64,000 nt of DNA from contig CASFEZ010000005.1 in the NCBI GenBank assembly GCA_949293815.1, forward strand, positions 62,001-126,000. The letters are read 5' to 3'. The first letter of the stretch is position 1; each line of letters begins with the position of its first letter. A model generated the notes under the pieces. That model was not told the DNA's origin, did not search any database, and saw only the letters and a list, made by a program, of their open reading frames with translations. This document shows positions 11,960 through 18,914 of this stretch, in pieces. Source of the DNA: an uncultured Eubacteriales bacterium. Its GTDB lineage: Bacteria; Bacillota; Clostridia; Oscillospirales; Acutalibacteraceae. Both the position numbers and the translations under genes were made by a program.

Positions 11960-13249
11960 TTATAAAATATAATCGGTAATACAATCATACCAATGCACAT
12001 AAGGTTCACCGTTGACCATCAGCGTTTCATTTTCCGGCAGCCGCTGCGACCAGGGGGTGCCGTGGTGCTCAATCGCCCAGGTATCGTGATTAAACCGCCG
12101 CCAGAGAATGGTGCGACCGTTTTCGTCCAAAAACTGCTCTGTCACCACACCGCCGTCGATATATGTACCTATATCCATAACGCATATGGTATCGTAACGC
12201 TTGCCGCCGATGGCAATGGTATATCGTCCGACCACATCCAGTAAAAACGGCTTGTTCACCGCTGTCACGATATTGCCGCTGCGGCAAATCTCCCCTTTCG
12301 GCTTCAGATGGATTTCGTTGCCGCAATTGTCCTCCCCGAATCCCCAATTATCCAGAAAGGGGTCACCGTCCAAAAAGGTATATAGCCGCTGAACGCCGCC
12401 CTCCTTGTGGCTTTCCGCCAGAATCCGACAGTGGGTATCCGTCAGCTGCGCAATCAGACTGCGCTCTACCACCTTCTGCCCGCCGGCAGAATTGCATTCC
12501 ATCGGGTCATATTCCACCGTGCGGATCTGTACGCCCCGAATCCCATGAACCTCGGCTGGTCCCAGCACCTTCATTTCCATACGCTCAGTACGGATGCGCT
12601 CGGGAAAATCATACATGGCCCACTGGAGCGTCTCGCCGATTTTCGGCACAATAAACCAGCCCATAATCTCTTCCCAGCAGACGGCAAACGGCTCCCCTTT
12701 TGCCTGCTCAATGGTATAGTCCGGCATGATTTTCGGTAAAGTATTCATATTCCATTCTCCTTTTTTCTCATTCGTTCGCTGCTCCCACAGCTTTTTGAAT
12801 TGCTGCTTCGCGGTGTACAAACGGCTTTTTACCGTACCCTCCGGAATTTGCAGCAACCGGGCAATTTCCTTTTGCGGCAGCTCCCGCCAGTAAACCAGAT
12901 ATAAAATCTGCCGATTGTTTTCACTTAATGCCGAAAGAATCTCCCGCACGGCAGCTCCTGAGGCGGCTCCGCTGCATGCAGCCAGCATTTTCGATTCCAA
13001 ATAAACCTTTTCCTGTAACTGCCGCTCTTTTGCCTGTTTACGGAAATAATCGCCGCATTTGCTGCGGGCTATTTGCAAAAGCCAGGACTGAAAAGCCGCC
13101 GGATTGCGCAGAGATGAAAAATTGAAATATGCACTCAGGCGGATTTCCTGCAACAAATCCTCAGCGGCAGCTGACGAAGATACGCGGAAGCGCACATACC
13201 GTTCCAATGCCGCGCTATGCGCCCGCAGCAGCGCTTCAAAACCATCCAT
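11960..13249 (-). CDS. ECF sigma factor fused to a large C-terminal domain
   Basis: A 429-residue protein. Residues 1-165 are an ECF-type sigma-70 factor: region 2 (YVRFRVSSSAAAEDLLQEIR, then FQSWLLQIARSKCGDYFRK) and region 4 (LPQKEIARLLQIPEGTVKSR). Residues 168-429 form a second domain beginning MNTLPKIMPDYTIEQ and ending YVHWYDCITDYIL, mainly beta, with no family name I can give. I chose ATG 13249 because GGAGGTG lies eight bases before it; ATG 13288 falls at the predicted transcript start. An ECF-type promoter at 13294-13321 suggests autoregulation. A strong AAAGGAG lies eight bases before an in-frame ATG at 12748, so the C-terminal domain may also be made alone. No anti-sigma gene is adjacent, and the extra domain may take that role (inference). 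Confidence 0.87.
   Translation of the reverse strand: MDGFEALLRAHSAALERYVRFRVSSSAAAEDLLQEIRLSAYFNFSSLRNPAAFQSWLLQIARSKCGDYFRKQAKERQLQEKVYLESKMLAACSGAASGAAVREILSALSENNRQILYLVYWRELPQKEIARLLQIPEGTVKSRLYTAKQQFKKLWEQRTNEKKGEWNMNTLPKIMPDYTIEQAKGEPFAVCWEEIMGWFIVPKIGETLQWAMYDFPERIRTERMEMKVLGPAEVHGIRGVQIRTVEYDPMECNSAGGQKVVERSLIAQLTDTHCRILAESHKEGGVQRLYTFLDGDPFLDNWGFGEDNCGNEIHLKPKGEICRSGNIVTAVNKPFLLDVVGRYTIAIGGKRYDTICVMDIGTYIDGGVVTEQFLDENGRTILWRRFNHDTWAIEHHGTPWSQRLPENETLMVNGEPYVHWYDCITDYIL
12744..12766 (-). promoter_or_regulatory. Internal ribosome-binding site and start in the sigma-factor gene
   Basis: Minus strand: AAAAAAGGAG, then AATGGAAT, then ATG at 12748, in the same frame as the sigma factor. 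The site is read in frame as Lys-Lys-Gly-Glu. It would give a separate 262-residue C-terminal protein (11960-12748). Confidence 0.6.
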
Positions 13250-13293
13250 ACACACACCTCCTGTAAAAGGATTGAGAATCGATTCCATACAAT

Positions 13294-13321
13294 AAGACGG
13301 TTTTCCCCGACAAAAGGTTCA
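13294..13321 (-). promoter_or_regulatory. ECF-type promoter in front of the sigma-factor gene
   Basis: Minus strand: TGAACC (13321-13316), exactly 16 bases, CGTCTT (13299-13294). This matches the TGAAAC-N16-CGTC form known for Bacillus ECF sigma factors. The predicted transcript starts about 40 bases before ATG 13249. Confidence 0.6.
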
Positions 13322-13431: not shown

Positions 13432-16400
13432 TTATGCAAACGCATTCAGCAATGCTGTCAGTATTTCAAGGATTCTGGTTATGATATCGATAAAAGCAGC
13501 CAGCATATCGCCAAGGTTCCGGTTGCAAATATCGCAGTCTCCGTCACCGTCCGCGTCAACATGGTCGCCCTCGTGCATCAAAACGCCTTCGCTGTTAAAG
13601 GTATACAGCTCGCCGTCAATGGTGACCTGACCGGTGGCAACCAGATTGTCGTTGCCCGGATCACAGTAATACCGGTCGCCGTCTACCGTCTGCCAGCCGG
13701 ACATCACTTCACCGTCAACGCAGAGAACCTTGCCGCCGTCCGCGTCTACAAGACCGTTCAAGCCACGGCCGTCCGAACCAAACAGATAGGTCTTGCCGTC
13801 GATTTCGATTTCGGCGTCAGTCACCATGTAGCCGGTCTCGGGGTCAAAGTAAAATGTGCCTTTTAATGTTTTAGAAGAGTTAAAATACAATCCGTCAACA
13901 TCACATAAGCCGGTGACATAGGAATTAGCCCAGAAATAGCGAATCGCACCGGAAGCCGGATCTTCTGAAACCCAACCTTTTATCAGTTTACCATTGGCAT
14001 CGCACTCAAACTTCTGATAGTTCCGCTCCCAGACACCGGTCAACATTTTACCATAGCTCTGCTCTTTACGAACACCATCGAACATGTACCAATCGCCATC
14101 AATATGCCACCAGCCATACTGCAAAACACCGGCATAGACATAGTATCTGGCGCCATTGGCGTATACATCCGCGCCGCGTACCAGTTTGCCGTCCGCATCA
14201 AACACATAGGTCAGCGTGGTCGGCTCGCCGTTAAAGAGGAAGTCCTCTACTTCCGCACGAGCGGTAGTAATGCTTTCGGTAATTTCAACCGTTCCGGTTA
14301 CGGCGTAGCCGTCAGAACCGAGATAATAGTAATCATCCTCAATAGCCTGCCAGGCGTTGGTTCTGGGGGTACCCATGTACAGGTACAACTTTTTGCCGTT
14401 GGTGCGGTCGGTCAGAAGACCGGTGTAGTTGCCAGCCTCACGTGTATAACCGCAAACCGAGCAAATCAGGTTGCCGCTGTCGTACTCATAGGCGTGTTCG
14501 CCGGATTCGGTGCAGGTGACTTCTTTTTCCACAGCATAGGAATCAATAATCATATCCGACCCATCAGGGGAAACGCTGTGGGTCTCTACAACAAAGGTAG
14601 TGTCGGTGGTTGATACCGACAGGTAAATCGCCTCGAACTCATCTTCGAGCATGGCGAAATGGAACGCATCGTTGGGAACAATATCGTAGGACTTTTCACC
14701 GGTGGAGCCGCAAATATAGTATACGGCGCCGCTTTCTTCGTCCACTTCACCGGCGGTCAAGGGATAGGTTCTCGCATAGGAATGGTCGTGACCGGAGAAT
14801 ACCACATCAATGCCCGCTTCATCCACCGCTGCGGGGACATAGGTATTGATATACCCGTTGCCGCCGGTGGGGTTGGTGTAATAGGGAGGCTGGTGTATGG
14901 TCAGCACTTTCCAGGTGGCATCAGAGGCATTGGCGTCTTCCACCAGCCAGGCCAGCGCATCCTGCAGCTGCTGGGCATTCTGGGTGTAGTTAATGACCGC
15001 TACATATACATTACCGTACTGTACCGAATAGGCGCTGCCGTAGGAGCCGTCCGCCAGGTTGTAAATCGCCTGGGCATTGGCGCCGGACAAGTCGCTCTCA
15101 TGCTCGTGGTTGCCCAATACATGAATGGCATCCACATCGCCCGCGACCTCTGCCTGATACAGGGAGAGGGTGTGCACCCAGTTTTCATAGTTGCCGGCAT
15201 TATCCACCGAGTCACCGGTCTGGATACTGAACGAATAGTTCTTATCCGAAGCGGCCAGCGTAGACATCAGACTCTGTACAAACGCAATATCCGCGTCCTG
15301 AATATCGGCAAGGACATAGAAAGAAGTATCCGAATGCAGCGGGTCAAGGGTGAATGAATACACATCCGACCAGTTTTCATCGGAACCGTCGCCGACTTTA
15401 TAAACATATTCCACACCGGCTTTAAGACCGGTTACCGTAACGCGGTTGCTGCGAACGGTGTTCTTGGAGGCAGTCATATTCAAATCGCTGCAAACGCCGG
15501 TATAAGTGGTGAAGGCTGCGTCGCCCTCTGCGTCATATGCCGCTTTTTCGGCAAGCATAACCACCGCATTTTCCGCTGTGTACAGCGGGTTGCTCAGCCA
15601 GCTGAACGCCTTGGAATTGGAACCGTTCGTTGTGGCTGGGGTGATGACATTGGTCGGTTTACCATCGGTCAATTCAGCGGGGATCGAGTTAATATCCACC
15701 GAACGAACAAAGGAAACATCGCCGTCTTTTTCAGCGTACAGACGCACCGAGCCAATCGCCGCAGTTATCGCGGCGGAAACAACCTGACCGCTTCCATCTG
15801 TGGTACCAACCAATGTGCCGGAATCTGCCATATAGACATTTGCCCCGGCGACCGGATTGCCGTCTATATCAACGACCGTTACAACCCCTTCCGTGCCCAC
15901 AAGCATCGGGTCGGCAGAAATGGCATATTTGGCTTCCACCAACGCGCTGACCGTGCCGGTCGCAAAGGAGGGAATAAAGCCCTCCGGCAGCGCATCTACT
16001 GCGGTAAAGGTACCGTTGACCGAATAGGTAAAGCTGCTGCCCTCAAACGTTGCGGCAGGAATCGCATAGCGGACAACGCCCAGCGCACCGTCTGTAGCAA
16101 CATCCAAATTCCGCTTGGCGCTGATGGTCAAAATATTATTTTTTTCATCCAATTCGTAAGTGCTACCGGCATAGGCGGGCGCAAATTCAATACTGTCGAA
16201 CTGATAGCCGCCGGAAACGGAAATATCGATCTGCGCTTCACTGATCGCCTCGGCGGGGTCAACTGTAAGCGCCAAATCCGCTGTTTTGCCAAGGAGCGGC
16301 GCGGCGGTCAGGGCGGCTTTTACGCTTGGGTAAACGGTTTCGCCCTTTACAAAGAAAGTGCGGGTTTCCTCGGTTTCGTTGCCGAAGCCGTCGCGAATCA

Positions 16401-18723
16401 CCAGCCGAACCGTGTGTGCGCCGTCCGCCAGCTCCGCATCGTATAAATAGCAGATATTATCCGCCGTTACCACGAAATTGCTGTTGCCTGTCACTTCCAC
16501 GCCGTCTACATACATACGAACGATATCCACACCGGTGGTATATTTGTTTTCCACATCGGAATAGGACGCCTGGAAAGTAACGGTATTCGAATCGACTGTT
16601 GTTACACCGCTTTCAATTTCCGTGTCGTTGACCATGATGGAATTGACCGCCGGCGCGTCTACGTCGTCGATATTCGCACCGTAAACGAATTGCAGGTTAT
16701 CCAGATAAATGGAGCCTTTGGACTGGGTGCCCATGTTAATACCGGGCACATACATCAGCCGGAAAGTATAGCCGCTTGCCAGGGTATACGGCGGAGCAAT
16801 ATTGGTCAAATCCGCCTCCAGATATTTCCAGCCGCTCCAGTAAATGCCTGCGGGGGTATCCTCCGTTGCCTGGCTGGTCTGCAGGGTAAAGTCAACCGGC
16901 GTTACCTTGGAGAAGTCATTATTATTATAGATATAACCACGCAGCCAGAAATTGGCGGTGCCTTCCGGCGCGTAGACCCAAACGCCGAAGCCGGTGGGCG
17001 TACCGGGCACCTCAAAGTTTTCGACCATGCCGAAGTACGAACCGTCGGTACCGGAAACGCTGTTGGTCTGGAAGTCATAATTCAGTTTCAGAGAATGCTC
17101 ACCGAAGCGCACCGGTTCATCGTCATAAATGCTGACGATTTCCGCCGAAGCAATAGCGCCGCGCCCGGCTGTACCGGTCTTGAAGTTAGAACCCTCGGTA
17201 TCAATGGTATAATAATCGGGATCCTCAAAATCCCATACCAGCGTGGGCAGCATACCGATAATGGCGCGAATGGTAGCGGACAATTCGCCTTCACCCGCAT
17301 AGGTCGCCGTAACATTGGCGGTAATGGTAATGCCGTCGGCAGAAGTAAAGGTATTGCCGTCAAATGTACCAATCACACCAAGGCAGTCCTCGCCGGTCTC
17401 CGCGTTGGCTGCGCTCCAGATGATATCGCCCGCTTTGATATGTACATCGCGCCCCATATACCGGGCTGTCAAACCAAAATCAGTTTCCGCTTCAAATCCG
17501 AGGCTGATTTCATCTGTAGCAAAATACAGCTCATCCGGGTTCTGAATCTCAATGGAAACAGAGCCGCAAACTTCGCCGCCGGACAGGTAATTTACCGTAA
17601 CCGTACCGGTTTGGTCATTGGCGGTGAACAGACCGTCCTCGGTGATAGAACCGAAGGACTCGTCCGCCAGGGCAAATACGCCGTCTGCGGGTAAATCCAC
17701 CGCAGCACCGGAGGAGTCAACGCCCTTGGCGGTAAACTGTACCTGGGAACCGGGGGTATAAATTTCGTTATTGGGTGTCAGGTTCGCATGATCAAACACG
17801 CCGGTGGGCTTCGCGGTGGATACCACCAGCAGAGAGGAAGCAACCGCACGCTCCACGCCGTCGGAAGGGCTGCTGGTAACCTGCAATTCCGACTCGCCTT
17901 CATGCTTGGAAACAAAGGTGGTCGAGCCGCCGCCGTCCAAATGGCCTGCCGTGACACAGCCGAGGCTTATCATCATATCCGCAATTTCCGACCAGGACAT
18001 ACCGCTAGATTTTGGCGCCTGGCGACCGTCCATAACAAAAAGAACAACTGAACCGTCCGCTTTGATACCAACGGCGGTTCTGGGCTGGTCGGCGGTGTTA
18101 TAGCTGCCGCCGGAGCCGTGAAGATTCACACCGTCACGAACACAGATTTCCCACAGACCTATCGCTTCCTTACAATCTGTAGGCGGCACGCTGGCGTCAC
18201 GAATCACCGCAGTACCGTCGTTCAAGATGGCAAAATACGGCTGGTTTCTTTCATTATGATAGTATTCCTTGCCATCCATAACCAGATAGCCGAAATCCGC
18301 GCCATTGGCCATATTGAAGATATTGCCGTTTACACCGCCAACAACGGTGAACTTCTCACCGTTCACTTCGCGCTTTCTTTCAGCAGCTTTTGCCTGGTCG
18401 CGAACGGTCTGCAAACCATCTTTCGTACCGTCCTGATCCTTATAGCTGGCCAGCACCGTAGCCGATGAGCCAGAGCCAAGCTGTACGGTCATGGCATACC
18501 CCATATTTTGGCGTGTGCCGTCAGCGTTATTTAAGATCAAATGTGTTTCTTCAACGCCGGGAGCAATGCTGTAGTCTGTCTTTGAAATCAGATACGTGTC
18601 GTCAGGGAATGTATCTTCTGTCAAATCTACCGCCGCAAATGCCGACATCGGCAAAACCGAAACCAGCATCAGCAAACTGAGCAAAACTGCCAGCAGCTTG
18701 GAAAAAGAAGAACCCTTTTTCAT
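13432..18723 (-). CDS. Giant secreted protein: NAGPA phosphodiester glycosidase, metallophosphatase, wall-binding repeats
   Basis: A 1763-residue surface or secreted protein. Signal peptide 1-31 (ends SAFAA). Residues about 120-300 are a NAGPA-type phosphodiester-glycosidase domain (PRTAVGIKADGSVVLFVMDG, HLDGGGSTTF with DGGG at 263-266). Immunoglobulin-like and jelly-roll regions follow (WDFEDPDYYTIDTEGSN), then a cohesin-like region about 800-940. Residues about 1030-1340 resemble purple acid phosphatases: a fibronectin-like part, then GDSVDNAGNYENW, GNHEHE and SGHDHSYAR carrying the metal ligands. Residues about 1440-1720 are choline-binding-like repeats (GWWHIDGDWYMFD and similar), ending HVDADGDGDCDIC and an amphipathic helix. 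ATG 18723 follows AAAGGAAG. It has its own promoter and terminator. The set suggests attack on phosphodiester-linked glycans or teichoic-acid-like polymers, or phosphate scavenging (inference). Confidence 0.9.
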   Translation of the reverse strand: MKKGSSFSKLLAVLLSLLMLVSVLPMSAFAAVDLTEDTFPDDTYLISKTDYSIAPGVEETHLILNNADGTRQNMGYAMTVQLGSGSSATVLASYKDQDGTKDGLQTVRDQAKAAERKREVNGEKFTVVGGVNGNIFNMANGADFGYLVMDGKEYYHNERNQPYFAILNDGTAVIRDASVPPTDCKEAIGLWEICVRDGVNLHGSGGSYNTADQPRTAVGIKADGSVVLFVMDGRQAPKSSGMSWSEIADMMISLGCVTAGHLDGGGSTTFVSKHEGESELQVTSSPSDGVERAVASSLLVVSTAKPTGVFDHANLTPNNEIYTPGSQVQFTAKGVDSSGAAVDLPADGVFALADESFGSITEDGLFTANDQTGTVTVNYLSGGEVCGSVSIEIQNPDELYFATDEISLGFEAETDFGLTARYMGRDVHIKAGDIIWSAANAETGEDCLGVIGTFDGNTFTSADGITITANVTATYAGEGELSATIRAIIGMLPTLVWDFEDPDYYTIDTEGSNFKTGTAGRGAIASAEIVSIYDDEPVRFGEHSLKLNYDFQTNSVSGTDGSYFGMVENFEVPGTPTGFGVWVYAPEGTANFWLRGYIYNNNDFSKVTPVDFTLQTSQATEDTPAGIYWSGWKYLEADLTNIAPPYTLASGYTFRLMYVPGINMGTQSKGSIYLDNLQFVYGANIDDVDAPAVNSIMVNDTEIESGVTTVDSNTVTFQASYSDVENKYTTGVDIVRMYVDGVEVTGNSNFVVTADNICYLYDAELADGAHTVRLVIRDGFGNETEETRTFFVKGETVYPSVKAALTAAPLLGKTADLALTVDPAEAISEAQIDISVSGGYQFDSIEFAPAYAGSTYELDEKNNILTISAKRNLDVATDGALGVVRYAIPAATFEGSSFTYSVNGTFTAVDALPEGFIPSFATGTVSALVEAKYAISADPMLVGTEGVVTVVDIDGNPVAGANVYMADSGTLVGTTDGSGQVVSAAITAAIGSVRLYAEKDGDVSFVRSVDINSIPAELTDGKPTNVITPATTNGSNSKAFSWLSNPLYTAENAVVMLAEKAAYDAEGDAAFTTYTGVCSDLNMTASKNTVRSNRVTVTGLKAGVEYVYKVGDGSDENWSDVYSFTLDPLHSDTSFYVLADIQDADIAFVQSLMSTLAASDKNYSFSIQTGDSVDNAGNYENWVHTLSLYQAEVAGDVDAIHVLGNHEHESDLSGANAQAIYNLADGSYGSAYSVQYGNVYVAVINYTQNAQQLQDALAWLVEDANASDATWKVLTIHQPPYYTNPTGGNGYINTYVPAAVDEAGIDVVFSGHDHSYARTYPLTAGEVDEESGAVYYICGSTGEKSYDIVPNDAFHFAMLEDEFEAIYLSVSTTDTTFVVETHSVSPDGSDMIIDSYAVEKEVTCTESGEHAYEYDSGNLICSVCGYTREAGNYTGLLTDRTNGKKLYLYMGTPRTNAWQAIEDDYYYLGSDGYAVTGTVEITESITTARAEVEDFLFNGEPTTLTYVFDADGKLVRGADVYANGARYYVYAGVLQYGWWHIDGDWYMFDGVRKEQSYGKMLTGVWERNYQKFECDANGKLIKGWVSEDPASGAIRYFWANSYVTGLCDVDGLYFNSSKTLKGTFYFDPETGYMVTDAEIEIDGKTYLFGSDGRGLNGLVDADGGKVLCVDGEVMSGWQTVDGDRYYCDPGNDNLVATGQVTIDGELYTFNSEGVLMHEGDHVDADGDGDCDICNRNLGDMLAAFIDIITRILEILTALLNAFA

Positions 18724-18914
18724 GTCAGACTTCCTTTCTTTGAATAAAATTATAATAAATGATAACAATTCCGTTTTTATTGCCCGTACAGGGATTTTCT
18801 GCCGAAATACACCCCTCCTTTCTTCGATTGCAATAGAATGAAACAAAAGCAAACAATCGAACGGCAGTATAATTTTCAGGCAAAAAATAAGCAGTCGTCG
18901 ATTTTCGCTCTTTC

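Follow-up and report, generated by a model that had tools for sequence, protein, structure and literature searches.

A conserved internal translation start in an ECF sigma factor fusion of Clostridia points to two products from one gene

A predicted second translation start within the sigma factor fusion

We analysed a 64,000 nucleotide (nt) stretch of DNA from an uncultured Eubacteriales bacterium (GCA_949293815.1, contig CASFEZ010000005.1, positions 62,001 to 126,000), hereafter the window, in which a gene on the minus strand (11960..13249) fuses an extracytoplasmic function (ECF) sigma factor to a C-terminal domain of 262 amino acids (aa). Comparison with relatives suggests that this one gene probably yields two in-frame products from one mRNA, namely the sigma factor with its C-terminal regulatory domain and the free domain translated from an inner ribosome-binding site in the linker, and we prefer this reading because the fusion and the inner start are both conserved.

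The open reading frame of the fusion contains sigma-70 region 2 at residues 7-74 (PF04542, Pfam E 3e-11) and region 4 at residues 100-150 (PF08281, E 3e-13), its sigma part scores 71.3 bits against a cut-off of 42.9 for the NCBIfam superfamily model TIGR02937, and the Pfam scan gave no match to the sigma-70 region 3 model in the sigma part, so that the gene has the regions 2 and 4 without region 3 that characterise ECF sigma factors. The sigma part and linker (12749..13249, minus strand, 167 codons) continue in frame into the domain, which as a predicted free product would occupy 11960..12748 (minus strand) and belongs to no known family by sequence and profile searches. A first-pass annotation made from the sequence alone had described such an in-frame fusion with an ECF part of about 165 residues and we see the same, at approximately 160-167 plus 262 aa. 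It had also pointed to a ribosome-binding site, eight nucleotides and an ATG at the joint that double as the codons for Lys-Lys-Gly-Glu, and these are indeed present at 12746-12766, where the minus strand reads GAG AAA AAA GGA GAA TGG AAT ATG (E-K-K-G-E-W-N-M). The inner Shine-Dalgarno (SD) sequence AAAAAAGGAG lies within the coding frame at 12757..12766, 8 nt ahead of the inner ATG at 12746..12748, both on the minus strand.

The frame is open over 11960-13288 (minus strand), and 13249 is the likely translation start of the full-length protein (429 aa) because 13288 lies only 8 nt past the -10 element of a predicted promoter and an outer SD, AGGAGG (13257..13262, minus strand), sits 7 nt upstream of 13249. 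The extent of 11960..13321 given by the first-pass annotation is thus kept at one end, the gene itself ending at 13249 and 13321 being the first base of the ECF-type promoter described below.

Selection on the inner Shine-Dalgarno sequence and start codon

SD strength was scored as the energy of the duplex formed by the 16 nt preceding the inner start codon and the 16S tail, for which we assumed a sequence from general knowledge, and the inner start was sought within ten codons of a conserved LPxxxP motif. In a non-redundant set of 113 relatives below 95% identity (loci are given as L numbers) an energy of -8 or lower precedes the inner start in 111, compared with 98 of the 837 other in-frame ATGs of the same genes, and the difference holds below 60% identity (26/27 against 19/189 other in-frame ATGs). 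When the start is chosen without regard to the SD, as the nearest ATG or failing that GTG or TTG, the energy is still -8 or lower in 108/112. Fused relatives lacking the inner ribosome-binding site had been named as the finding that would speak against a second start; the opposite is seen. The start codon is ATG in 110, GTG in two and TTG in one of the 113, and where the methionine is replaced (L025, L119, L123 and L131) the codon in its place is GTG or TTG, both of which are start codons.

The strength of this signal exceeds what the encoded residues account for. When the eight codons before the start were recoded with synonymous codons drawn by each gene's own codon usage, the observed mean energy of -11.1 stood against a null of -7.53 (z -7.8) and none of 1000 recodings was as strong, whereas the same procedure at 176 other ATGs gave a z of +1.4. 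Gene by gene the effect is weaker, with p < 0.05 in 45 of the 113 single genes and in 9/27 of those below 60% identity. The glycine at the joint is encoded by GGA in 71/74 cases compared with 472/2006 elsewhere (Fisher p 3e-39). As many as 95 distinct hexapeptides precede the inner start in the 113 genes, and of the 21 that lack the dipeptide KG 19 still reach -8 or lower by means of AGAAAGG, GAAGAGG, GAAGGAG and similar sequences. In the diverged L225, which aligns best to L027, itself only 22% identical to the domain of the window, AAAGGAG is found in another codon frame (Tyr-Glu-Arg-Ser), its GGAG beginning 14 nt from the ATG, and relatives whose domain is only 43-65% identical also keep the SD and start at the joint.

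The spacing of the two elements is near-fixed. The first G of GGAG lies 12 nt from the start in 55/72 genes and 9 nt in 7/72, GGAG being absent in 10/72, while the flanking stretches vary in length, over 19-27 codons between sigma region 4 and the inner start in 71/72 and over 3-9 codons from there to LPxxxP. Inner and outer SDs are of about equal strength, at -11.72 and -11.48 respectively (60 genes, the start with the strongest SD being used as the outer one). Our analysis therefore places an SD and a start codon inside the reading frame that are conserved beyond the constraint on the protein, and the comparison shows the pair to be under selection as nucleotides and not as amino acids.

Distribution and conservation of the fusion

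The domain occurs once in its own genome. It was found in 29/300 genomes of a family sample (protein query, E <= 0.01), 49/394 of an order sample, 15/391 of a class sample and 3/398 of a phylum sample (profile query, E <= 0.001), where each count includes the own genome, the draws overlap and the family, order and class counts take in some weak or incomplete matches. The family sample held three further genomes of the same genus, of which two gave no match to the domain, and its distribution is patchy. A sequence collection contained 426 confirmed relatives, and the best 80 of the 426, which were kept, are labelled as Clostridia, Clostridiales, Oscillospiraceae, Ruminococcaceae, Lachnospiraceae, Christensenella and similar groups, many of them from the ruminant gut.

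In total, 147 loci with a domain match were collected, of which 140 could be read at the joint and seven were dropped as the start of the domain was not reached; one of the seven, L026, likewise joins an ECF part to the domain and has a strong inner SD (-12.1), but its frame shifts inside the domain. Full-length matches that were not fetched were judged by their open frame alone (425 aa or more in the order sample). In 136/140 loci the domain is preceded in frame by an ECF part (E < 1e-5). The first-pass annotation had proposed searching the domain alone for cases in which it forms a separate gene directly after an ECF gene, and this arrangement occurs in none of the 140 loci. Fewer than 150 codons precede the inner start in five of the 136, namely L035, L052 and L054 at contig edges and L008 and L137, in which the ECF frame is broken upstream of region 4. 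The four non-ECF loci, excluded from the ECF tests, are two contig-edge truncations (L098 and L126), a fusion in which a helix-turn-helix (HTH) protein of the CD3324 family (NF040785) replaces the sigma factor (L025) and a domain standing alone without a sigma part (L074, 3893-4786), directly behind a gene that we read as Fic.

Several diverged loci (L223-L228 and L231) were read at the joint by eye and stand outside the 140. Two of them, L223 and L224, are further fusions of the domain to a CD3324-type HTH partner and keep AAGGAG-AAGAAA-ATG (AAGGAG-N6-ATG). No neighbouring gene is widely shared in the 56 loci inspected, the commonest neighbour family occurring in ten. The domain of L003 and L078 is cut by an in-frame TGA, leaving an open frame of 212 codons, which may reflect an assembly error or a copy that is broken.

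An ECF-type promoter and a palindrome upstream of the gene

A zero-mismatch site TGAACC-N16-CGTC lies upstream of the gene at 13296..13321 (minus strand), its TGAAC-like -35 and CGTC-like -10 elements forming what we take to be an ECF-type motif, and would imply autoregulation. A relaxed pattern (TGAACC-N16-CG[TA]C or a close variant) is found upstream of 101/113 genes, or 101 of the 111 not cut by a contig edge, two of the 12 genes without it being at contig edges; the controls gave 3/111 on the opposite strand and 0/111 in a coding stretch of up to 650 nt. The narrower TGAA[CT]C-N15-17-CGTC occurs in 36/71 and in neither the opposite-strand nor the coding control. Conservation of the fusion and of a predicted ECF-type promoter at its own gene is thus shown by the comparison.

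A strict form of the motif, TGAACCTTT-N13-CG[AT]C, has 59 exact matches in 46 genomes against seven for the reversed-pattern control, and 45 of the 59, in 41 genomes, lie ahead of a family gene. Thirteen of the 14 off-family matches were fetched, the one left out (G405:C66) having the same 26 bases as G405:C101. Ten of these 13 are covered by an open frame of at least 103 aa and three look intergenic: L216, at a contig end with the leader sequence of the family behind it, L218, ahead of an ECF-like gene that is broken, and L217 (genome G345), ahead of a gene (932-1417) with a CxxxCxxC motif that by this motif we presume to encode a radical SAM protein and that is a possible second promoter target. 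Since 45/59 exact strict matches are at family genes with few intergenic others, the pattern suggests that the gene is its own main target in a largely self-transcribing one-gene circuit.

Between promoter and coding sequence a palindrome GAATCGATTC (13276..13285, minus strand) is centred 15 nt after the -10 element and likely lies over the transcription start. The centre falls at 15 in 81 of the 101 promoter-bearing relatives and at 16 in a further six, and a half-length of at least 5 was reached in 76/101 genes compared with 5/101 in a downstream control window, for which 28 centres were tried versus 32 at the real site. The core varies (CCGG, GCGC, TCGA, ACGT) with the symmetry kept, and the palindrome is also present by eye in the diverged subfamily (L225-L227). 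We regard the form TGAAANCGNTTTCA as resembling a cre/LacI-family operator. There are 53 exact TGAAANCGNTTTCA sites in 27/46 genomes (control, nine sites), nine of the 53 at family genes, and none in the window's own genome. As most exact sites lie away from family genes, the palindrome may be the site of a wider regulator.

The C-terminal domain

Neither Pfam nor PHROG gave a match to the 262-aa domain at E <= 1, and NCBIfam returned only stretches of class C beta-lactamase models at no more than 16.9 bits, where the cut-offs are 810 or higher. A scan of 22 members against Pfam gave single-member matches only (E 0.035 or worse). No SnoaL family was detected and no TPR models were listed in Pfam for the window protein or the 22 members, nor was there a match to known anti-sigma families in Pfam, NCBIfam or the 22-member scan. 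A PDB profile search gave nothing significant, and its best match, an N-terminal stretch of metallo-beta-lactamases (E 0.4), was deemed chance as a fold lead. A match on a Sinorhizobium plasmid (E 1e-3, 28%), in a frame that we read as beta-lactamase-like, was set aside as the domain profile finds nothing in that record, an internal duplication was rejected on alignment of the two halves (hhalign probability 0.4%), and phages gave no domain match at E 1e-3.

Cysteines 107, 142, 189 and 256 are all present in 111/144 domains and three of them in a further 21. The mostly conserved three to four cysteines are a hint of a metal or redox signal. The occurrence of the same domain type on an HTH regulator supports the role of a general sensor over that of a sigma-specific inhibitor, and a sensor or anti-sigma role of the domain is plausible.

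Interpretation and alternatives

The first-pass annotation had left open whether two separate genes were joined by loss of a stop codon or one gene makes two products; with 136/140 loci fused and selection acting at the nucleotide level, two products are favoured and a recent stop-codon loss is not. In the mechanism we propose, the sigma factor would transcribe its own gene, the fused domain would hold or release sigma activity in response to a signal, and the extra free domain would be either an effector dealing with that signal or a titrating or feedback partner of the full-length protein. We put forward only tentatively the fuller picture of a one-gene circuit of Clostridia, in which a sigma factor with its own promoter as main or only target carries a sensor at its C-terminus and free sensor copies arise from the linker start, such that sigma activity would be turned into more free domain acting as true effector or as brake, with the palindromic operator as part of the circuit.

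The joint does have the anatomy of an ordinary second cistron, as would be expected were the site a relic of operon genes fused by stop-codon loss. Against a leftover of this kind speak its presence in relatives whose domains are only 43-65% identical, the synonymous recoding result and the GGA bias at the joint, and the separate-gene arrangement it supposes is missing from the 140 loci; the extent to which the relatives have diverged already contradicts this explanation, which we consider extremely improbable. A somewhat better but still poor case can be made for a Lys-Gly-Glu-x-x-Met peptide conserved as a hinge or recognition motif that the DNA merely follows, given that lysine at -5 and glycine at -4 relative to the start each occur in 59/72. 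Conservation of the peptide would leave the choice of GGA in 71/74 unexplained, joints such as RKVDD, KKEEV, TEGGEN and YERSKLT all keep the SD, and the loci that have lost the methionine use other start codons.

The SD-like sequence might alternatively make translation pause between the sigma part and the domain, with no free domain made, and it does sit in the inter-domain linker, where pausing could aid folding, among residues that are otherwise variable; the spacing is 14 nt in L225, and with a search window of ten codons part of the 113/113 start codons could be due to chance. A pause needs no start codon however, yet ATG, GTG or TTG is there in every gene, at a near-fixed distance from GGAG (12 nt in 55/72, 9 nt in 7/72) even where the length of the domain N-terminus varies between 3 and 9 codons, and we think the explanation unlikely. 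As a special case of the two-product reading, the domain could be a built-in anti-sigma factor with its free copy as additional anti-sigma in trans. The lack of a widely shared neighbour in 56 loci that might serve as an alternative anti-sigma factor would fit, whereas the absence of matches to known anti-sigma families and the presence of the same domain on a CD3324 HTH protein, which makes it not specific to sigma, argue the other way, leaving this possible but doubtful.

A number of observations weigh against one gene with two products or against the circuit built on it. A linker sequence resembling an SD can have the effect of slowing ribosomes as well. Where several starts stood the candidate with the best SD was taken, two ATGs being present in 11/112 genes, and the inner starts of L123 and L143 were set by hand. 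Two of the 113 relatives have a weaker inner SD (L040, -7.3; L050, -6.8), the HTH-fused L025 has a weak one (-5.9) and the free domain of L074 has none at that methionine (-3.8). L074 is the single case of an unfused domain, which is thin support for a free function, and all four cysteines are absent from five divergent domains of the 144. Lastly, loosening the promoter pattern yields 131 matches, with 65 for the control, so that further targets with less strict promoters are possible.

Comparison with known systems

A review of ECF groups with C-terminal extensions (PMC8999054) describes, in the passages available, an architecture that the window family shares, with regions 2 and 4 plus an extra C-terminal domain and no widely shared neighbour as anti-sigma candidate. 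The extension in the window matches none of the domains described there in Pfam, and a conserved internal translation start, the feature of the window family, goes unmentioned in those passages. ECF41 and ECF56 have a SnoaL-like C-terminal domain and ECF42 has C-terminal TPR repeats, neither of which the Pfam scans showed in the window family. ECF238 (CorE-like) has a cysteine-rich C-terminal domain (CRD), and in the window family the four conserved cysteines are spread over 262 aa. Ruminococcus is a clostridium of gut and rumen. The ECF group modelled on Ruminococcus albus, ECF262 (SFB89493.1), has according to the part of its description available a regulatory extension of unstudied mechanism, and its likeness to the window family, drawn from description and not from sequence, lies in that extension.

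Internal in-frame starts are known from other systems. Cas11 originates within a longer gene of the cas8 type. It is a separate subunit made from an internal in-frame start and its product is reportedly shown by experiment (PMC11899642); the proteins are unrelated to the window family, for whose internal start conservation is shown. In Salmonella, N-terminal proteoform pairs are described in the available part of a further study (PMC11005335) as likewise two proteins arising through a second in-frame start, and unlike those pairs the inner start of the window family is located where two domains join and is retained in many families of the class. Searches of an open-access library, read at the level of titles and abstract openings, showed no sigma factor with an internal start of this kind.

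Automated gene prediction would list a single fusion protein at this locus; were the domain also produced in free form, work confined to the fusion would overlook half of the system. Should the two-product reading hold, one reading frame, retained in many families of the class, would provide the regulatory domain of a sigma factor in cis as well as in trans. The inner SD is open to silent mutation, making testable whether regulators linked in cis are also needed in trans, and the self-biased promoter hints that there may be sigma factors whose main target is the gene encoding them.

The adjoining gene (13432-18852, minus strand) encodes a predicted protein of 1806 aa that combines a phosphodiester glycosidase, a metallophosphoesterase of the purple acid phosphatase type and choline-binding repeats.
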